Assembly: GCA_025454795.1 (NCBI GenBank)
Contig: JALONT010000036.1
Span: 1-45,196 of the forward strand
From: Bacteroidales bacterium
Lineage (GTDB): Bacteria > Bacteroidota > Bacteroidia > Bacteroidales > VadinHA17
DNA: 45,196 nt
Direction: 5' to 3'
The notes below the pieces were generated by a model. The model saw nothing but the letters and a program-made list of their open reading frames with translations. It did no database searches and had not been told where the DNA came from. The position numbers and the translations under genes are program-made. Shown piece by piece: positions 24,717 through 44,785 of this stretch; positions within the stretch are counted from its first letter, which is position 1; every line of letters begins with the position of its first letter.

Positions 24717-25496
24717 ATGGTAAGCAGGAGCAAGGTAAATTTCATTATATCACTTCAGAAGAAAAAAATAAGAGAAGAAGAAAAGCTTTACGTTATTGAA
24801 GGCGACAAGCTTGTCAAAGAATTCCTGGCTGCAGGGGTATCTGTCAGGACACTTGTTGCCAAACCCGAATTTCTGAACTCCCTCCCCTTGTTTCAAAAAC
24901 AGGGTATTGGAGAGATAATACCTGCAAGTTATGATGATCTGAAAAAGATCAGCTCACTGAAAACACCGCATAATGCACTTGCAGTTATTCAGATGCCGGA
25001 AATCAAAATGTATCCTTCCGACCTTAAATCAGGTTTAACAGTCGCACTTGATTTTGTACAGGATCCGGGGAATCTCGGGACAATAATCAGGGCAGCTGCC
25101 TGGTTTGGGATAGGAAATATTTATTGCTCCGGAGACTGCGTCGATGTATATAACCCTAAGGTGATTCAGGCAAGCATGGGTGCCATACTGCATGTTAACG
25201 TTTTCTATACCGATCTCAGAAAACTGTTTGAGACAGCAGCAGAGCTTAAGGTTAAAGTCTTTGGCGCTCTTATCGAAGGGGAATCGATCTATTCACACAA
25301 ACTGGAAAACAATGGAATTATACTTCTCGGGAATGAATCAAAGGGAATCTCGGAAGAGCTATTGCCATATATTACTGACAGAATAATGATTCCAAAATTA
25401 AGCAATGCTCAATCCGGAATTGATTCACTGAATGTAAGTATGGCTGCATCGGTTATACTCTCTGAATTTACAAGGAGTAAAGGAAGGCTGAATTAA
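24717..25496 (+). CDS. SPOUT RNA 2'-O-methyltransferase, TrmH/SpoU family
   Basis: A 259-residue AdoMet-dependent ribose methyltransferase for rRNA or tRNA. An N-terminal SpoU substrate-binding domain (about 5-95) precedes the knotted SPOUT domain with motif 1 DPGNLGTIIRAAAWFG, motif 2 ILLGNESKGIS and motif 3 IPKLSNAQSGIDSLNVSMAASV. The target nucleotide cannot be told from sequence. It is the first plus-strand gene after the core block, divergent from tamL with a 57-bp AT-rich spacer. Its stop codon is the first triplet of a 110-bp tandem repeat. Confidence 0.93.
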   Translation: MVSRSKVNFIISLQKKKIREEEKLYVIEGDKLVKEFLAAGVSVRTLVAKPEFLNSLPLFQKQGIGEIIPASYDDLKKISSLKTPHNALAVIQMPEIKMYPSDLKSGLTVALDFVQDPGNLGTIIRAAAWFGIGNIYCSGDCVDVYNPKVIQASMGAILHVNVFYTDLRKLFETAAELKVKVFGALIEGESIYSHKLENNGIILLGNESKGISEELLPYITDRIMIPKLSNAQSGIDSLNVSMAASVILSEFTRSKGRLN

Positions 25497-25608
25497 AAGA
25501 TAAAAGATAAAAGATAAAAGACCAAAGATAAAAGACCAAAGATAAAAGACCAAAGATAAAAGACCAAAGATAAAAGACCAAAGATAAAAGACCAAAGATA
25601 AAAGCAAC
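25494..25608 (+). repeat. Tandem repeat starting at the stop codon (7-bp unit expanding to a 14-bp unit)
   Basis: Begins inside the methyltransferase stop codon: TAAAAGA repeated three times, then six copies of the 14-bp unit ACCAAAGATAAAAG, itself two diverged heptamers. It fills the whole gap to the convergent FAD-protein gene. The minus strand gives a spurious hydrophobic reading frame of repeated Phe, Leu and Trp, which I do not regard as a gene. Confidence 0.9.
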
Positions 25609-30388: not shown

Positions 30389-30483
30389 AAACCAATTTAT
30401 TTCTAACCCACACCTTGCCTCCCGAGATTTCGCTCACGACAAGCCCGCACAGGAGGGGATTAAAACTGTTTAACACCTTCCAC

Positions 30484-30520
30484 TTTTATCTTTTATCTTT
30501 TATCTTTTATCTTTTATCTT
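30484..30520 (-). repeat. 7-bp tandem repeat behind the nitroreductase stop codon
   Basis: Read on the minus strand, the nitroreductase stop TAA (30525-30523) is followed by ACAAGA and then five copies of the heptamer TAAAAGA. It is the same unit and same orientation relative to the gene as at 25494 and 32179. The stretch before it (30400-30465) holds a degenerate AACCCAC...GGAGGGG repeat fragment. Confidence 0.85.
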
Positions 30521-31451: not shown

Positions 31452-32180
31452 ATGAGGAGATTTATTTGCATCATTTTGTTAGCCATGACAGTGGTCAGCA
31501 TCAATGCGCAGATGAAACCGGAAGAGACCGAAGACTGGTCAGGGAAACCTGAGATAGTAATCCCCGGAAAGAACAATCAGCCTCCTTCAGATGCGATTGT
31601 ATTGTTCTCTGGTCAGAATGATGTTGTAAACTGGGTCCATGAAAAAGGAGGTCCTGTTAAATGGACTGCAGATTCGTGTCTGACTATAGTCCCGAACACC
31701 GGAAGCATAAAAACGGTACAATCATTTGGTGACTGCCAGTTGCATATTGAATGGAAAACACCATCGGAGGTAAAAGGGACCAGTCAGGGACGAGGGAACA
31801 GCGGCATATTCCTGATGGGGAAATATGAACTCCAGGTGCTTGACTCGTACAATAATGAGACCTACCATAACGGACAGGCCGGATCGATTTACAAGCAGTT
31901 CGCACCCCTCGTGAATGCCTCACTTGGCCCGGGGCAATGGCAAACCTATGATGTTGTTTTTACTGCGCCCGTAATTAATGCAGACGGAGCGCTCCTCACT
32001 CCTGCCTGCTTTACGGTATTTCATAACGGCGTTCTGATCCAGAACCATGTAAAACTAAGAGGACCTACTGAATATATCGGGATCCCGGTGTACAAAGCAC
32101 ATGAGGAAAAACTGCCACTCGTGCTTCAGGACCATAAGAATCCTGTTTCGTTCAGGAATATATGGATAAGGGAGCTTTAA
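31452..32180 (+). CDS. Secreted DUF1080 protein (3-keto-disaccharide hydrolase family)
   Basis: A 242-residue protein starting at ATG 31452 (MRRFICIILLAMTVVSINAQ), a clean signal peptide; frame extension to 31287 would bury it and is rejected. The DUF1080 concanavalin-like fold is shown by IVLFSGQND, GDCQLHIEWKTP, GRGNSGIFLMGKYELQVLD, GQAGSIYK and the C-terminal PLVLQDHKNPVSFRNIWIREL. Members act on 3-keto-glycosides in the pathway described in Bacteroides, cleaving after an oxidoreductase makes the 3-keto sugar. The next two plus-strand genes encode a sugar isomerase and a Gfo/Idh/MocA oxidoreductase, the expected partners. Export to the periplasm is predicted. Confidence 0.9.
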   Translation: MRRFICIILLAMTVVSINAQMKPEETEDWSGKPEIVIPGKNNQPPSDAIVLFSGQNDVVNWVHEKGGPVKWTADSCLTIVPNTGSIKTVQSFGDCQLHIEWKTPSEVKGTSQGRGNSGIFLMGKYELQVLDSYNNETYHNGQAGSIYKQFAPLVNASLGPGQWQTYDVVFTAPVINADGALLTPACFTVFHNGVLIQNHVKLRGPTEYIGIPVYKAHEEKLPLVLQDHKNPVSFRNIWIREL

Positions 32181-32285
32181 AGATAAAAGATAAAAGATAA
32201 AAGATAAAAGCTGAGGAGTGTAGCGACGAACCGATCCGCCAACCGGCGGAGAGCTCGGCGAAGCCAAATCCCGCTTCGGCGGGAA
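32179..32285 (+). repeat. 7-bp tandem repeat behind DUF1080 plus two small hairpins
   Basis: The DUF1080 stop TAA (32178-32180) is followed at once by four and a half copies of AGATAAA (equivalent to TAAAAGA). Then come two short palindromes, TCCGCCAACCGGCGGA and CCCGCTTCGGCGGG, before the next gene. Same heptamer and orientation as at 25494 and 30484. Confidence 0.85.
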
Positions 32286-38131: not shown

Positions 38132-39346
38132 CTAATTATTTGTCCGTAACCGTGTTAAAGCAAACGTAACATCATCTTTTAATTCAGGAACTTCAGCAAG
38201 GCCTTTAATTGCCGGGATGCAGTAATCAGAACCCATCCAGCTGAGTTCGCGAAGGATAAGTTTTTTAGATTCAGCCGATGCTTCATCATTTTTGAGTATG
38301 CTTACCATTTTCTTTTCAAGCATCAGAATAGTTTTTTCATCTCCGGAAGCTTTACGGATCCTGTCTTGCAGACATGTAAAGTACCTGGTGCTTTTCTGTA
38401 TATCGTAATTGCAAATGTTATCAATAGCTTCATCCAGTGTAATTTCTTTAAAATCAGGGCGTAGCACTACACCGGAAACATTAGGAAAATCAAACGGGAC
38501 CTCCTGTGTTACAGATCCTGAAGCAGCCCATTCAGCGCCTCTCTGAAGTGTCACAATGAAGCCTGTGCATTGCATTGCAGGACCACCACCCTCATCACCA
38601 TATCCCAATGTAGTATGGAATATTCTTCCTTTGCCATAATCAATTACCATCAGCATTGGTTCATCCCTTCCTGTTCCTTTAAATGAAGTATCAGCAAATG
38701 CTGTTGCCAGCACCTGCATATTCTTTGCCGGACCGCGAAGCTGCTGATAAAGCTCATCGCTTGCATGCATCCACCGTGCAGGTAATCCTTTTGTAATCGG
38801 GTGGTCAGCAATTCGTGTTCTCACTTCAAAATCATGCCTTGGACCGTGAGAGCCGGCTTTCCCTGCCGAAGTATCTGTAACCAGGGTGTTCTTTGAATAG
38901 TATACGTATGGACCATCTTTTTCATTACGGTTTCCCCATCCGCCAAGACCTGTCATTTCATTATACTCTTTCCAGTCGGGGAAAGCAATGCTTGATCCAT
39001 GATAAACTACCACACCTCCCCCATTTTTAACATAATCGATAAAAGCCTGTTTTGTCTTTTCAGACCATGAATCACCGCTGTAGTTAAGAACTACGAGCCT
39101 GTACTTTGAGAAATCGGGATTAAAGTTTGTCATATCCCCACCTTTTTCAGGAGTGATCATAATCTCTGTTGAAAATAAACCTGTTCCATCAAGTATCTGC
39201 TTCAGAACAGGATGACTCGCTTTCCAGTTATGTTCACTCTGTCCTGTGATAAGCAGTGTTTCATACACTTCACTTTTCCTACAGGAAGGAAATATTGCGA
39301 TAACTACAGCAATCAATAGAAATATTATATAATATCTTTTTATCAT
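38132..39346 (-). CDS. ThuA-domain lipoprotein
   Basis: A 404-residue predicted lipoprotein: ATG 39346 (MIKRYYIIFLL) gives a signal with lipobox IFPSC (Cys22). The ThuA-like, glutamine-amidotransferase-like fold covers about residues 28-270 (LLITGQSEHNW, VLNYSGDSW, GGVVVYHGSS, GRIFHTTLGYGDE). A helical C-terminal part (about 290-400, ending LRELSWMGSD...VTFALTRL) resembles HEAT-type repeats. ThuA proteins are repeatedly found with Gfo/Idh/MocA oxidoreductases and DUF1080 proteins in sugar clusters, and their reaction is poorly known. It is downstream of two exported oxidoreductases in the same orientation. Confidence 0.87.
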   Translation of the reverse strand: MIKRYYIIFLLIAVVIAIFPSCRKSEVYETLLITGQSEHNWKASHPVLKQILDGTGLFSTEIMITPEKGGDMTNFNPDFSKYRLVVLNYSGDSWSEKTKQAFIDYVKNGGGVVVYHGSSIAFPDWKEYNEMTGLGGWGNRNEKDGPYVYYSKNTLVTDTSAGKAGSHGPRHDFEVRTRIADHPITKGLPARWMHASDELYQQLRGPAKNMQVLATAFADTSFKGTGRDEPMLMVIDYGKGRIFHTTLGYGDEGGGPAMQCTGFIVTLQRGAEWAASGSVTQEVPFDFPNVSGVVLRPDFKEITLDEAIDNICNYDIQKSTRYFTCLQDRIRKASGDEKTILMLEKKMVSILKNDEASAESKKLILRELSWMGSDYCIPAIKGLAEVPELKDDVTFALTRLRTNN

Positions 39347-39449
39347 AATATAAATTATTTTAAAGGTATGATGGAACCGCACATGTTGATAAATTTATTT
39401 TTAGAATCTTTGGCTTTAGTAAAACATGTGGGTTTCATAAATTACAATT

Positions 39450-40763
39450 TTACACGGTTGGTAAAGTCCATGGTTGACGATATGGTCTGCTGAGCAATCT
39501 TGTTGCTCCCGGATTGCCTATTATTTCTTCCTTATCCGGATCCCAGTGAATTGTCTGACCGGTAGTCATCGCGATCTCTCCAAGAAGTCCAACCGATATT
39601 GCACGATATGCGACCTCAATTGGTGCAATAGGCTGATCTCCGGAGCGTACGCAATCAATAAAGTTCTGCCAATGATCATCACTTTTATAGAGTTGTATCT
39701 CATTTTCACTGATTACCTCATCAAGGATTTTCGGATCTGAAGCAGAGAGCTTGTTGCCTCTGTCGGTATGAATCCATCCCTTGTCGCCATACCAGGTTGT
39801 CCCCATTCCAAGTTTTAATCGTGAAGAATTCGCTACTCTCATTTCGATCCCGTTTGCATATTTGCAGAGAATATCATATTCCACCGGTACATTATATATC
39901 CCATCAGAGGGGTAAATACCTGAACCTGATATCTCCACCGGACCTGTATATTCAAGTCCCGCACCCCAGTTCGCCATATCGATATGATGTCCAGCCCAGT
40001 CAGTAAGCTGACCTCCGGAATAGTCGAGAATCCAGCGCCAGTCCCAGTGGGATACACCGCGATAAGGGACTTTCGGAGCAGGTCCGAGCCACATTTCCCA
40101 GTTAAGTTGAGGCGGGACCTCAGCTACCGGAGGAGTCCCAATTCCCCTGACTCCGTCTGGTAATCCTACTTCAATATTTTTTATCTTCCCGGCTCTTCCG
40201 TTGATTGCAAGCTCAGCACCGCGCCTGAAATTAGGCAGCGAGCGTTGCCAGCTGCCTGTCTGCCAGATCACATTAGTCTTTTTTACAGCAGCAACAATTG
40301 TCTGTCCGTCATTAATTGTACGGCAGATCGGTTTCTCACCATATACATTGAGGTTTTTATTTACAGCCTCTGTATAGATGATCCCGTGCCAGTGGTCCGG
40401 AAGAGCAATGGATACTGCATCAAGCTTCTCTTTTTCAAGGAATTCCCTGAAATCCCAGTAAGTACGGCAACCACTGTCTTTATTAAAAGTGTCGATTGTT
40501 GTCTTTGCTTTTGCAAGATGAAGTGAATCAATGTCGCATGCTGCTACAAACTGAGGGGCTTCCTTAAGTTGCAGAAAGTGATTAAGGTTCGACATCCCCT
40601 GCGAGCCCGTACCAATGCATCCCATTACAATACGGTCACTTGGAGCAGTTTTACCTCCTGTTCCGAATACCGACGACGGTATAATTTCAGGCAACACAAA
40701 TATCCCTGCTGCAGCTGCAGCCGAGTGTCTTACAAAATCTCTTCTGGTTGATTTCTTTGACAT
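39450..40763 (-). CDS. Tat-exported Gfo/Idh/MocA oxidoreductase (soluble)
   Basis: A 437-residue protein with a twin-arginine signal (TRRDF, Arg7-Arg8, then an Ala-rich core) and no lipobox, so it should be folded with its cofactor and released to the periplasm. The nucleotide-binding motif GCIGTGSQG is at 48-56, EKP at 143-145, and the substrate domain contains DWAGHHIDMANWG. The C-terminal region is the bacterial-type Gfo/Idh/MocA extension common in Bacteroidota. Retention of bound NAD(P) and reoxidation by another protein or by an alternating substrate are needed in the periplasm. It starts 6 bp after the paralogue at 40770. Confidence 0.9.
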   Translation of the reverse strand: MSKKSTRRDFVRHSAAAAAGIFVLPEIIPSSVFGTGGKTAPSDRIVMGCIGTGSQGMSNLNHFLQLKEAPQFVAACDIDSLHLAKAKTTIDTFNKDSGCRTYWDFREFLEKEKLDAVSIALPDHWHGIIYTEAVNKNLNVYGEKPICRTINDGQTIVAAVKKTNVIWQTGSWQRSLPNFRRGAELAINGRAGKIKNIEVGLPDGVRGIGTPPVAEVPPQLNWEMWLGPAPKVPYRGVSHWDWRWILDYSGGQLTDWAGHHIDMANWGAGLEYTGPVEISGSGIYPSDGIYNVPVEYDILCKYANGIEMRVANSSRLKLGMGTTWYGDKGWIHTDRGNKLSASDPKILDEVISENEIQLYKSDDHWQNFIDCVRSGDQPIAPIEVAYRAISVGLLGEIAMTTGQTIHWDPDKEEIIGNPGATRLLSRPYRQPWTLPTV

Positions 40764-40769
40764 AGCTGA

Positions 40770-42140
40770 TTAGATTATTTGACCCTTAAACGAAGGTGTT
40801 ACAGAACTTTTGACAGGTGTGCCGGGTACAGGTGTTTCGAAGACCATATCTACCGGACCGAATTCAATTCTTGAGGGACCCAGATCCATATCCGATTTTA
40901 AAATCTCTTCCCATGTAATAGCCTTGCCGGTATATGCTGCAGTTCTTCCCATAATTGCAGTTAGTGTGGAAACAGCTGTCTGTTCGGCTTCATTTACATA
41001 ATTGCCTGTCCTTATAGCATATACAAGATGCATATGCTCCTGAACGTAGGGAGGAATAACAGAATGATCCATCTTATTTCCATTTTCATCTTTCGGATAT
41101 TCAAATTCCCAGATGATATTTCCTTTAAGGTCCCATATTGTATTCTGGCAGTTAGTATACCCTTCCGTACCCATTATCATTTCGCCTGTTCCGTTTGCAC
41201 AGCTGTCTACCTGCCGGCACATACTGTGTAAACTTACACCATTGCCATAATCAAAATCAACGCTAAAGAAATCATACTGGTCGCCTGTCACTCTTCTTGC
41301 ACGGCCACCGTAACCGATAGCTTTTTCAGGATGCCTGCCCATGAACCAGTTAATAACATCAATATTATGTACATGTGTATCCAGGATATGATCACCGCTG
41401 AGCCAGCAGAAATTATTCCAGTTACGGAGCATATATTCCATATCGTTCCATCCGGGTTCACGTTCCCTGAACCATACATGATCCTGGTTCCAGAAAGCTT
41501 TTGCTGAAGTTATTGTACCTATAGCACCGCTCATCACCTGTTTATAGGTCTCAATGTAATCTTCCTGGTGTCGGCGCTGGGTACCGGTTACAACATTCAG
41601 TCCAATAGCCCCGGCCTTTTTCCCTGAAGTGATGATTGAACGTATCCCGACCGAATCAACAGCAACCGGTTTTTCCATGAAAACATGCTTGTTGGTTGAA
41701 ACTGCTTCGAGGAAATGGTCAGGTCTGAATTGGGGAGGAGTGGCAAGGATGACCACATCAATATCCATAAGTGCCATCAGCTTTTTATAGCTGTTGAATC
41801 CCGTAAAACAGTTTTCTGCCGGAATTGGCAGATTAAATGAGGCGAACCGCTCACGGCAAGCATCGATCTTGTCCTGGAAAACATCAGCCAGGGCAGCTAT
41901 CTCAAGGTCAGGGCCCGAGCTGATAAAATTGATTGCTGCTCCAGTGCCCCTGGCACCGGCACCTATTAGTCCGGCCTTTAGTTTCTTCCCCTTAGGGGCT
42001 CCATTAAGGATAGGAGCAAGTCCTGAAACCTGAGTTGTCTCTTTTCTTTTACATGCAGAAATTAATGCCCCTGCACCTGCAAGTCCAATACCTGCGAGGG
42101 CACTCTTTCCAATGAATTTTCTCCTGTCTATATTCTCCAT
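40770..42140 (-). CDS. Tat-exported Gfo/Idh/MocA oxidoreductase (predicted lipoprotein)
   Basis: A 456-residue protein whose signal combines a twin arginine (DRRKF, Arg6-Arg7) with a lipobox ISAC (Cys30). It should therefore be exported folded and then tethered to a membrane. GLIGAGARG at 57-65 binds nucleotide, MEKPV holds EKP at 156-158, and ILDTHVHNIDVINWFMG carries the His/Asp substrate-site residues. Paired 6 bp upstream of a soluble paralogue, the two could form a complex or act in sequence. It is preceded by the cytochrome-FGE fusion gene. Confidence 0.9.
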   Translation of the reverse strand: MENIDRRKFIGKSALAGIGLAGAGALISACKRKETTQVSGLAPILNGAPKGKKLKAGLIGAGARGTGAAINFISSGPDLEIAALADVFQDKIDACRERFASFNLPIPAENCFTGFNSYKKLMALMDIDVVILATPPQFRPDHFLEAVSTNKHVFMEKPVAVDSVGIRSIITSGKKAGAIGLNVVTGTQRRHQEDYIETYKQVMSGAIGTITSAKAFWNQDHVWFREREPGWNDMEYMLRNWNNFCWLSGDHILDTHVHNIDVINWFMGRHPEKAIGYGGRARRVTGDQYDFFSVDFDYGNGVSLHSMCRQVDSCANGTGEMIMGTEGYTNCQNTIWDLKGNIIWEFEYPKDENGNKMDHSVIPPYVQEHMHLVYAIRTGNYVNEAEQTAVSTLTAIMGRTAAYTGKAITWEEILKSDMDLGPSRIEFGPVDMVFETPVPGTPVKSSVTPSFKGQII

Positions 42141-42171: not shown

Positions 42172-42220
42172 TTTCAACCCTCTTTAACCTTCTTCAACTC
42201 CCTTCAACTTCCTTCAACCT
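42172..42220 (-). repeat. 10-bp tandem repeat abutting the cytochrome-FGE stop codon
   Basis: On the minus strand the stop TAG (42221-42219) runs into five degenerate 10-bp units: GGTTGAAGGA, AGTTGAAGGG, AGTTGAAGAA, GGTTAAAGAG, GGTTGAAATA. The last codons of the gene (GGTTGAGAAA) already resemble the unit. Confidence 0.75.
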
Positions 42221-43754
42221 ATTTCTCAACCAACGAATCCGGCTCACAGACCACCCTGAAGCCCACATCAATACAATCGGAGTACCACCAGAGGCTTTTA
42301 GGCATCTGTGGATCGGTGACCAGCCAGGCTTTAGTTTTTGTAAAGTCGCGTGCCGCACTTCGTACATCAACTGCATCGCTTTTAAATGATCCCCCGCGGA
42401 TAACATGCTCCGGTCCTCTTGAGGGACCTGTAGGGTCTGTTCCTGTTGAATCTGATTTATAAAAATCAGCAGAATAGACATCGGAGCAGAACTCTGCGAC
42501 ATTCCCCGACATGTTTTTTAAGCCGAAAGGATTACTCCTGACAAATGATGGTTCTTCAGTTTTTGAGGAACTGTTATTATAATAAACTACATATGATGCG
42601 ATATTTGATGTATCGGGGCCAAAAAGCTTTTTTCCAAATCCTTCCGAGGAGAGTTTTTTCGGATCACCCGGGAAAAAATATGGTGTTTCGGTACCAGCCC
42701 TGCATGCATATTCCCATTCGGCCTCTGTTGGCAAGCGGTATTTCTTTCCGGTAACCTGCGAAAGCCATTTGCAATAGACATTTGCTGCATACCATGACAT
42801 TGTTATTGCAGGTCTTGAACCTTTACCCCATCCCTGGTCAGGAGCTCCCCATGGCGGTGTTGCCCCGCTGATTGCGTCAGTTTTCTTATTTGTCACAACC
42901 TGACCTTCCGTTCTTCCCTGGGAACCTGTAGCCCTGAAAAAAGCCAGGTACTCATCCCATGTTACTTCAACTTTTGCCATCCAGAAAGGAGATACAGTCA
43001 CTGCCCGGACAGGGCCTTCATCAATATCCCTTGCCGGCTCATCATCGGGGCTCCCCATCCTGAATCGTCCACCCGGCAGTGCCACCATATCGAATGAGAC
43101 CCTTGTTCCTGGTATCATTTCTGTGAAATTCTCAAATTTCTCAACCCTTGCCGGTTCTGTATAAGGAGGTTCAGTTGAAGTTATTGTGATACCAAAGCTG
43201 GTATCATGAGCATGTATGGCAGCATTTTTATCGTAATGTCCCACATTCAGGTGACAGTTAATGCAATTCAGAGGATCTTTGCTTGTCGTATAAAAAAGAT
43301 GAGCATTCCCTCCGTTAACCGAAAGGGTAACAGGAAAAAGGTTTTGATGGCACTCGGTGCATGATTTCTCATATACAAAACCTATTGCATTCTCCAGAAG
43401 CTTTTTCTTCTGCCAGTTAATTTCCGCGCTATCCTTGAAAAGATATCCATAAACATCCTTAAATCCATGTTTTACCTTTGCAAAGAAATAGCCATGTCCT
43501 TCGGGAGGCAGATGGCATTCGGTACAGTGGACAACAATTCCGGATTGGTTATTATAGTGAGTCGACAATTTCCAGCTCTGATCTGCAGATGGATGAATAT
43601 GGCATGACATACAATACTTATCGGTTGAGGTGTATTTCATTGCTTTTCTGCCTGAGAAAATGAAAAGGACAGAAATCAGAATTCCAAAAATGAAAAACCA
43701 AACTTTTGTCCTTCTACCTACAGAAGTCTTGCTGTTATAATTATAATAATTCAT
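42219..43754 (-). CDS. NapC/NrfH-like tetrahaem cytochrome c fused to an FGE-sulfatase-like (SUMF1) domain
   Basis: A 511-residue fusion. An N-terminal membrane anchor (about 17-36) is followed by four c-type haem motifs, C48MSCH, C77TECH, C132TECH and C164INCH, spaced as in the NapC/NirT/NrfH family that takes electrons from menaquinol. From about 222 to 505 runs a formylglycine-generating-enzyme-like domain (VALPGGRFRMGS, PFWMAKVEVTW, YRLPTEAEWEYACRAG, NMSGNVAEFCSD, VIRGGSFKSD, DVGFRVV). The two active-site Cys of true FGE, expected just after the RGGS motif, are replaced (Ser and Val), so sulfatase activation is unlikely; a binding or structural role fits better. It is 78 bp upstream of two exported oxidoreductases. 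Confidence 0.92.
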   Translation of the reverse strand: MNYYNYNSKTSVGRRTKVWFFIFGILISVLFIFSGRKAMKYTSTDKYCMSCHIHPSADQSWKLSTHYNNQSGIVVHCTECHLPPEGHGYFFAKVKHGFKDVYGYLFKDSAEINWQKKKLLENAIGFVYEKSCTECHQNLFPVTLSVNGGNAHLFYTTSKDPLNCINCHLNVGHYDKNAAIHAHDTSFGITITSTEPPYTEPARVEKFENFTEMIPGTRVSFDMVALPGGRFRMGSPDDEPARDIDEGPVRAVTVSPFWMAKVEVTWDEYLAFFRATGSQGRTEGQVVTNKKTDAISGATPPWGAPDQGWGKGSRPAITMSWYAANVYCKWLSQVTGKKYRLPTEAEWEYACRAGTETPYFFPGDPKKLSSEGFGKKLFGPDTSNIASYVVYYNNSSSKTEEPSFVRSNPFGLKNMSGNVAEFCSDVYSADFYKSDSTGTDPTGPSRGPEHVIRGGSFKSDAVDVRSAARDFTKTKAWLVTDPQMPKSLWWYSDCIDVGFRVVCEPDSLVEK

Positions 43755-43852: not shown

Positions 43853-44785
43853 TCAGAATCTCTTTGTATACCCGTGACAATAAGGCACTTTGCCATTATT
43901 GAAATAATAATCCTGGTGATATTTTTCAGCTTCAAAAAACTCTGATGCTGCCGTTATTGCAGTTACAACCTTGTACCCTTTGTCATTCAGCAATTTAATA
44001 TTTTTCTCAGCAATTCTCTTCTGATCATCATTCAGGTAGAAGATCTCAGAGCGATACTGATCACCGATGTCGGGTCCCTGTCCTCCTGCCTGGGTCGGAT
44101 CATGTATTTCCATAAATAGCTTGAGAAGCTTTTCATAGGTTGTCTTCTCTGGATTATAAATGACTTTTACAGCTTCAGCGTGTCCGGTTCTGCCTGTACA
44201 GACTTCCTTATATGACGGATTTCTGATACTCCCTCCCGTATAACCGGAGGTCACCGATATTACGCCCGGTTCTTTCTGCAGGAAATACTCAACTCCCCAG
44301 AAGCATCCGCCTGCAAATATTGCAATGCCATATCTGCCTGTTTCCAGTACTGCAGGAATGAAGTCGAGTGAAACTGAGTTCACACAATGGCGAATATTTT
44401 TAGATGTAAGTCTCTCCCCTGTAAATACATGACCCAGATGGGCACCACAGTTTGCACAGGTTATTTCTGTCCTCAATCCATCGGCGTCGGGAAATCTTTT
44501 TACAGCACCTCTTATCTCATCGTCAAAGCTGGGCCATCCGCATTCAGAATTAAACTTGTCAGTAGAATGATAAAGTGCAGCACCGCATTTTTTGCAGATA
44601 TATGTTCCCTGTTCCGTGTAATTTGTAAACTTTCCTGTATAAGGCATTTCTGTTCCCTTATTGTTTATTACCGTGGATTCCGCTTTGGTAAGATTGTTGA
44701 ATGGTAATTTCTCCTGTGAAAATGATCCTGAGCTCATGGTAATAAAAATTATAAATGAAATTATTGAAAAAGATTTCCTGTTCAT
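43853..44785 (-). CDS. msrAB: Exported bifunctional methionine sulfoxide reductase (MsrB-MsrA fusion)
   Basis: A 310-residue protein with a signal peptide (about 1-24, ending SFSQ). MsrB comes first (about 27-145): zinc ligands Cys64, Cys67, Cys110, Cys113, CGWPSF, and catalytic Cys134 in RHCVNSVSLDF. MsrA follows (about 153-310) with catalytic Cys161 in GGCFWGVE and the YTGG, GHAEAV and QYRS motifs. It repairs both epimers of oxidised methionine in exported proteins. Recycling needs an exported thioredoxin-like donor, none of which is adjacent. It is 98 bp upstream of the cytochrome-FGE gene. Confidence 0.95.
   Translation of the reverse strand: MNRKSFSIISFIIFITMSSGSFSQEKLPFNNLTKAESTVINNKGTEMPYTGKFTNYTEQGTYICKKCGAALYHSTDKFNSECGWPSFDDEIRGAVKRFPDADGLRTEITCANCGAHLGHVFTGERLTSKNIRHCVNSVSLDFIPAVLETGRYGIAIFAGGCFWGVEYFLQKEPGVISVTSGYTGGSIRNPSYKEVCTGRTGHAEAVKVIYNPEKTTYEKLLKLFMEIHDPTQAGGQGPDIGDQYRSEIFYLNDDQKRIAEKNIKLLNDKGYKVVTAITAASEFFEAEKYHQDYYFNNGKVPYCHGYTKRF

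Follow-up and report, generated by a model that had tools for sequence, protein, structure and literature searches.

In many bacteria, sugar dehydrogenases that depend on NAD(P) are exported to a location without a free NAD pool. To our knowledge, the fate of their electrons is clear mainly for redox-neutral enzymes, of which the glucose-fructose oxidoreductase (GFOR) is an example. The question is raised by a 45,196-nucleotide stretch of DNA from a Bacteroidales bacterium (hereafter the window: contig JALONT010000036.1 of assembly GCA_025454795.1, positions 1 to 45,196). On its minus strand, a gene at 42219..43754 encodes a protein of 511 residues in which a tetrahaem domain of the NapC/NrfH type is fused to an FGE-like domain, and the next gene downstream encodes an exported oxidoreductase of the Gfo/Idh/MocA family (hereafter Gfo). 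The pairing of such an enzyme with a quinone-linked haem protein, both of them membrane-anchored, opens the question to a simple bench test.

The fusion protein and Gfo very likely form one functional system; that this system moves electrons, and from Gfo toward menaquinone, is the likeliest of the mechanisms considered. Our preferred reading, to which we give a probability of slightly less than one half (about 0.48), is that the fusion sits in the inner membrane and connects an exported sugar dehydrogenase to quinone: the FGE-like domain would dock Gfo and the haems would pass electrons to menaquinone.

Architecture and conservation of the fusion protein

The sequence-only reading of the window had described a tetrahaem NapC/NrfH-like cytochrome with one membrane anchor, joined to an FGE-like domain. 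This is confirmed: a single open frame encodes an N-terminal membrane helix, the tetrahaem domain, a linker and a domain of the FGE/SUMF1 fold, so that the fusion is real. The hydrophobic windows are confined to residues 15–39, which indicates a single N-terminal membrane helix, and the predicted structure has a helix at residues 9–42. The NapC/NrfH-type domain (residues 18–174; 43233..43703, minus strand) matches Cytochrom_NNT with 99.5 bits, the cut-off being 24.1.

The same genome contains a second full-length copy of the fusion on another contig (57% identity). In a sample of 149 genomes of the order, full-length homologues are present in 19 genomes (21 proteins); in a twentieth genome (G010) the FGE part matches alone, and it was not counted as a fusion. 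A set of these homologues (A1) was made of 19 of the 21 proteins, L040 and L046 being omitted because of uncertain starts. Further relatives, and controls, were supplied by a scan with two peptide patterns, of which the best 80 matches were kept. The 32 full-length fusions considered here are the 21 proteins of the order sample, ten proteins from named Bacteroidota contigs among the best 80 matches listed, and one from elsewhere in the phylum. L010 has one stop within the matched stretch, and its open frame alone was used.

The tree was calculated with 89 of 129 rows (the 32 fusions, 49 of 72 other FGE-like relatives and 8 of 25 controls), the remaining rows being short best segments or omitted for number. 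All 32 fusions fall in one clade (support 100/99), and a single origin of the fusion is therefore sufficient. Five verrucomicrobial FGE relatives outside this clade (L059, L064, L076, L077 and L085) have one or two CxxCH motifs in frame, and L077 is the only one of the five with an adjacent Gfo gene. Haem modules may thus have been added to this group of FGE-like proteins more than once.

The fusion shares with the NapC/NrfH/NirT quinol dehydrogenases (e.g., NrfH from Desulfovibrio vulgaris, and CymA) one membrane helix, four CxxCH motifs and the spacing of the quinol-site lysine and aspartate. Four CxxCH motifs are present in all 32 fusions, in which every haem cysteine and histidine, four further histidines, Lys93 and Asp100 are invariant. 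In an alignment with D. vulgaris NrfH, Lys93 and Asp100 match Lys82 and Asp89 at equal spacing; PMC4683180 (available part) names the latter two among the conserved residues of NrfH, which interacts with quinone. The fusion differs from NrfH in its fused FGE-like domain, in its score against the NrfH equivalog model (71.5 bits, under the cut-off of 134.2) and in the motif of haem I: His54 (CxxCHxH) replaces Met49 of NrfH (CxxCHxM) in 32/32 fusions, which sets them apart from the NapC/NrfH pattern. A separate NrfH-like protein, encoded at one of the fusion loci (L037), does carry CxxCHxM. In the genome of the window, no near-complete NapC/NrfH-type domain occurs outside the two fusions, and two partial matches sit in other multihaem proteins. 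This genome also encodes TatC, a cytochrome c assembly protein and cytochrome bd.

The FGE-like domain and its signature insert

The FGE/SUMF1-like domain extends over residues 222–470 according to Pfam (42345..43091, minus strand), and the fold match spans residues 204 to about 505–509 in the structure model. Both the FGE-sulfatase domain and the fold are thus recognized in the fusion. The fold and the core motifs are common to SUMF1 and PvdO, from which the fusion differs by the absence of the copper-site cysteine pair and by a signature insert. The cysteine pair is present in none of the 29 fusions (of 32) whose motif is readable, and the copper-site loop is three residues shorter. The sequence-only reading had noted this absence correctly; the significance which it attached to the loss finds no support, since loss of these cysteines is ordinary within the superfamily and gives no clue to function. 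EgtB uses three histidines. In the window protein, a single histidine (His450) occurs in the FGE part, and no conserved histidine column is listed; the conserved metal-binding histidines of the EgtB/SenA-type iron enzymes are thus missing. The fold matches include variable proteins such as Treponema variable protein 1 and the Major Tropism Determinant.

The insert (residues 477–490, W..TDPQ.PKS.WW; 42285..42326, minus strand) follows the form W..(T/R)DPQxPKSxWW and lies after the last of the FGE core motifs and before a C-terminal GFR. It is found in Gfo-partnered FGE-like proteins, in 103 of 104 loci (L104 lacks it), and in 0/25 of the distant FGE-like controls. Because the scan used the signature (TDPQ[IMQ]PKS) as one of its two peptide patterns, only the order and phylum samples are independent for this count; in these, whose selection did not use the motif, the insert is present in 49/49 loci. 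Among seven loci with a weak FGE-like protein, five carry the insert and L221 and L229 do not. The tie between the fusion and Gfo also hints at what many FGE-like proteins lacking the copper-site cysteines, a large group, may do, and the W..DPQxPKSxWW motif can serve as a signature in searches for them.

The exported Gfo partner

The partner gene (40770..42140, minus strand) starts 78 bp downstream of the fusion gene. Its product has the Rossmann and C-terminal domains, the NAD motif and the EKP motif of the Gfo/Idh/MocA family, preceded by a Tat (twin-arginine) motif and a lipobox cysteine, Cys30. A same-strand Gfo gene lies directly downstream of the fusion in 30 of the 32 loci, with a median gap of 31.5 bp. 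In the two others, Gfo is either about 9.3 kb downstream on the same strand and contig (L029) or present on both sides of the fusion in a rearranged locus (L041). Maribellus sp. YY47 and Parabacteroides sp. ZJ-118, whose records do not bear the label of a metagenome assembly, also encode the pair. When the neighbours of the 21 order-sample loci were clustered, Gfo was next door in 19, and no other gene adjoined the fusion as regularly. This distinguishes the fusion from NapC/NrfH systems, as its regular neighbour is Gfo and not a nitrite or nitrate reductase.

The association also holds between genomes. In the order sample, the 19 genomes with a full-length fusion all encode the partner Gfo subfamily (E ≤ 1e-70), which is found in 0/130 of the others, neither gene occurring alone at these thresholds (Fisher's test, 2e-24, uncorrected for relatedness). 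In a reverse search that started from Gfo, an FGE gene was directly upstream in 26 of the 30 best-scoring loci, three having none and one a weak FGE downstream; the model used (A3) was built from partnered Gfo proteins and the best 30 matches were opened, which biases this test toward partnered ones. Co-occurrence with exported oxidoreductases had been set beforehand, in the sequence-only reading, as a test on which its proposal should stand or fall, and the proposal withstands it well in these three counts.

The pairing extends beyond the fusions. Of the FGE relatives outside the fusion clade, 53/72 directly adjoin a Gfo gene, compared to 0/25 of the more distant FGE-like proteins from the peptide-pattern scan (L127 and L128 were removed from the count as duplicates). 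These pairs come from Flavobacteria, Sphingobacteria, Chitinophagales, Planctomycetota, Verrucomicrobiota and Acidobacteriota. Partnered and control FGE-like proteins were divided at 165 bits, a line drawn after the data had been inspected, and weaker FGE-like proteins beside Gfo do exist (L229, 163 bits; L214, 153 bits; L227, a fragment of 113 bits). Among the 19 outside-clade loci without an adjacent Gfo, L148 has one at a distance of 328 bp and L067 about 1 kb downstream; in L062 the Gfo match is in an overlapping longer frame, in L097 Gfo is directly upstream, and L072 ends at a contig edge. Two flavobacterial FGE relatives without an adjacent Gfo, L198 (8198–16150) and L199 (8059–16364), are near genes for YceI, PSCyt1/PSCyt2/PSD1 and DUF1501 proteins and a PSCyt1 membrane protein; the neighbours of L198 were annotated and L199 was judged alike. 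In a phylum sample of 395 genomes, all 36 genomes with an FGE at 1e-60 have a Gfo at 1e-100.

The tree distances of the fusion/FGE proteins and of their Gfo partners are correlated (r = 0.90 over 62 pairs and 0.71 within 29 fusion pairs; 0/1000 permutations as high). Length filters retained 62 of 83 pairs, and common descent contributes to r.

Export and anchoring signals are conserved in the partners. Arg6 and Arg7 of the twin-arginine motif and Cys30 are invariant in 12/12 partner Gfo proteins, and a Tat motif followed by a lipobox cysteine is present in all 30 Gfo proteins adjacent to a fusion (28 by pattern, two by eye). The order sample also contains 13 partner-type copies that are not adjacent to a fusion, and a lipobox was recognized by eye in 12 of them, L197 being without it. 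Among the readable Gfo partners of other FGE-like proteins, 0/48 have a lipobox. The lipid anchor on Gfo tracks the membrane haem domain on the fusion, a correspondence that hints at a complex of both proteins at the inner membrane; it amounts to one evolutionary event and is suggestive rather than statistical.

One genome encodes seven partner-type Gfo copies and one fusion. The seven copies form one clade (Shimodaira–Hasegawa-like approximate likelihood ratio test, SH-aLRT, 99), which fits the idea of a shared hub. The partner-Gfo tree is of a quick kind with long distant rows; L197, a weaker match, was left out of it, and L193 falls outside the fusion-partner group. In the genome with seven copies, one of them (L189, 5002–9233) is beside a cytochrome with nine CxxCH motifs and a GMC oxidoreductase.

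A possible route of electrons to menaquinone

In the mechanism that we favor, Gfo would be folded with NAD(P) in the cytoplasm, exported by the Tat system and lipid-anchored, a bound cofactor being expected from its family. It would oxidize a sugar or a glycoside, probably at C3 to judge from the neighbouring genes, and the product would feed the xylose-isomerase-like, ThuA-like or 3-keto-disaccharide-hydrolase enzymes encoded nearby. The NAD(P)H bound to Gfo would be out of reach of the cytoplasmic pool. The FGE-like domain would dock Gfo, probably via the W..DPQxPKSxWW insert, and the four haems would carry the electrons to menaquinone at an NrfH-type site. This direction is proposed because Lys93 and Asp100 are conserved and because of the textbook potentials (about −320 mV for NADH and about −74 mV for menaquinone). 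One fusion may serve several dehydrogenases, as the genome with seven partner-type Gfo copies would allow.

Several points weigh against this reading. CxxCH motifs are absent from 67 of the 72 FGE relatives outside the fusion clade, and 52 of these 67 still adjoin Gfo, so electron transfer via fused haems cannot account for all that the FGE domain does; its older function may be docking or scaffolding. In the phylum sample, 28 of the 64 genomes with Gfo have no FGE at 1e-60, although in some of them a weaker FGE is encoded upstream. The passage of electrons straight from NADH to haem is chemically awkward, and neither a flavin nor any other two-to-one-electron converter was identified. Gfo-type enzymes can also be redox-neutral and need no acceptor. 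The structure model of the fusion is weak, its haem part being mostly below a predicted local distance difference test score (pLDDT) of 65 and uninformative. Finally, the NapC/NrfH family is described, in the available part of PMC10654088, as oxidizing quinol, i.e., as working in the opposite direction; the same text calls Met49 and Asp89 of NrfH both essential for menaquinol oxidation, and this methionine is absent from the fusions.

The sequence-only reading had suggested a tethered electron acceptor, with a sugar or a partner protein as its putative ligand, in the context of two Tat-exported oxidoreductases, and overall it is partly supported. A role in electron transfer at the membrane is favored by the lysine and aspartate conserved in 32/32 fusions and by the lipobox of the partner; the haem-less pairs show where that idea is too narrow. 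The second of the two oxidoreductases finds no support as a partner (see below).

Other explanations

The FGE-like domain, which has a fold of the C-type-lectin type, could instead be a scaffold or a specificity factor which binds the substrate glycan or aids the folding, cofactor retention or membrane location of Gfo, the NapC-type domain being mainly an anchor or part of another respiratory branch. The large proportion of relatives without CxxCH, the lack of a copper-site cysteine pair or conserved histidine in the FGE part, the aromatic residues in which the insert is rich and the fold matches to variable proteins all agree with such a function. A mere anchor would however not need haem ligands and a quinol-site Lys/Asp pair that are invariant in 32/32 fusions, and Gfo is the sole gene found so regularly beside the fusion. 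We judge this explanation unlikely.

It is a little less probable still that the FGE-like protein is a reactivase. Gfo would then be a redox-neutral, NAD-dependent glycosidase or epimerase whose bound cofactor is occasionally left reduced when a keto intermediate escapes; because free NAD is absent outside the cytoplasm, help would be needed to re-oxidize it, and the haems would dump the electrons into menaquinone. The partner does have NAD-dependent glycosidases and GFOR among its high fold matches, the pair is kept without fused haems in other lineages, and a rescue role would agree with the presence of several Gfo copies beside a single fusion in one genome. This mechanism likewise lacks a two-to-one-electron converter, and the neighbouring 3-keto-type enzymes point to net oxidation as easily as to neutrality.

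That the FGE-like domain is itself a PvdO-like oxidase or dehydrogenase acting on the product of Gfo is quite improbable: the fusion scores 117.4 bits against the PvdO equivalog model, whose cut-off is 500, true FGEs outscore PvdO in a profile comparison, and neither a copper-site cysteine pair nor a conserved histidine is present.

Electron flow in the reductive direction, in which the NapC/NrfH-type domain would oxidize menaquinol and drive a reduction by the exported partner (e.g., of a keto-sugar), is more improbable again. The transfer from menaquinol to bound NAD(P)+ is uphill according to textbook potentials. This direction is that described for the NapC/NrfH family in the available part of PMC10654088, but the haem I methionine which that text calls essential for menaquinol oxidation is a histidine in 32/32 fusions.

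We give hardly any credit to the idea that the fusion supplies quinol electrons for methionine sulfoxide repair to the MsrAB protein encoded 98 bp upstream on the same strand of the window (43853..44785), since no protein of the other 20 loci clustered with this MsrAB at E 1e-15, whereas Gfo is next door in 19/21.

Relation to known systems

The preferred reading, in which the fusion links an exported Gfo to menaquinone, has relatives among known systems. LacABC holds a flavoprotein and a cytochrome. The resemblance to LacABC lies in the membrane-linked oxidation of glycosides in the periplasm and in the downstream 3-keto enzymes (PMC9007349, available part); it differs in that the dehydrogenase here is a Gfo/Idh/MocA protein. 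As for BT2158-type enzymes, they also oxidize glycosides in the periplasm of Bacteroidales (PMC11300592, in the portion available), but the partner Gfo scores 31.7 bits against that glycoside 3-dehydrogenase family, and the second Gfo of the window 155.5 bits, the cut-off being 750; by score, the partner is therefore not a member.

The Gfo/Idh/MocA fold of the partner is shared with GFOR and with aldose-aldose oxidoreductase. GFOR is exported by Tat with a tightly bound NADP, and both enzymes recycle their cofactor with a second sugar; we know of no cytochrome partner of either.

The domains of the fusion are known, and what appears to be new is their fusion, the regular partnership with Gfo and the signature; the system is akin to the quinone-linked multihaem partners of periplasmic oxidoreductases. 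A literature search, which covered titles and abstracts and excluded subscription papers, preprints and domain-architecture databases, found no description of the fusion or of the FGE–Gfo pair, and earlier notice is possible. As a tentative generalization, which we regard as possible but less probable than the preferred reading, the fusion may be a flavin-free, extracytoplasmic relay from dehydrogenase to quinone. The FGE fold would be a general module for docking and electron transfer that serves exported NAD(P)-dependent Gfo proteins. In one clade of Bacteroidota it would have been joined, a single time, to a tetrahaem quinone module, giving a hub that re-oxidizes the bound nicotinamide of several Gfo proteins, and the haem-less FGE–Gfo pair would be a widespread, apparently undescribed system in Bacteroidota, Planctomycetota, Verrucomicrobiota and Acidobacteriota.

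Neighbouring genes and other features of the window

The partner gene is followed on the minus strand by a gene for a second Tat-type Gfo/Idh/MocA protein (39450..40763), whose best NCBIfam match is the BT_2158 glycoside 3-dehydrogenase family. It was rejected as a conserved partner, as it lies far outside the partner clade, and a second Gfo of this kind follows in a minority of loci. A gene for a ThuA-like protein (38132..39382, minus strand) is located 67 bp further downstream.

A gene for a TIM-barrel (xylose-isomerase-like), ThuA-like or 3-keto-disaccharide-hydrolase protein occurs within 6 kb in 23/29 fusion loci, 16/44 loci of the other partnered group and 0/24 controls (the loci used being 29 of 32, 44 of 72 and 24 of 25), a comparison which favors these loci because the neighbour-gene models were made from their own proteins. 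The TIM barrels that were inspected mostly start with Tat-type signals. These 3-keto-type genes recall a 3-keto-glycoside pathway, and a paper in Nature in 2024 reportedly describes a 3-keto pathway for glycans in gut bacteria. LacABC carries out the periplasmic oxidation of lactose, and hydrolysis of the keto sugar has been proposed for DUF1080 proteins (PMC9007349, same part). BT2158 of Bacteroides thetaiotaomicron is a periplasmic glycoside 3-dehydrogenase according to the portion of PMC11300592 cited above. As a general need the 3-keto route is questioned by the observation, in the available part of PMC11501099, that B. thetaiotaomicron strains with BT2157 or BT2158 deleted singly are unaffected in their use of raffinose-family sugars.

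Upstream of the fusion gene, the gene at 43853..44785 (minus strand) encodes a protein in which MsrB and MsrA are fused and which probably has a signal peptide; it was rejected as a partner. Genes for cytochrome bd subunit II are near the fusion in 3/21 loci (L038, L040 and L041; one annotated, the others identified by clustering). By eye, c-type cytochromes were seen near FGE-only loci in both the partnered and the control sets; we make no claim of enrichment.

Promoter-like and terminator-like patterns show no excess in the window (14 compared to 19.1 in shuffled sequences, and 6 compared to 6.5, respectively), and no site of the Bacteroides-type promoter pattern was found near the operon. 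The Rfam matches in the window are five tRNAs only. Tandem arrays of the heptamer type occur at 25496–25604 (AAAGATAAAAGACC, 7.8 copies), 30483–30520 (CTTTTAT, 5.4 copies) and 32179–32210 (AAAGATA, 4.6 copies), the first of which accounts for four of the six promoter-pattern matches.
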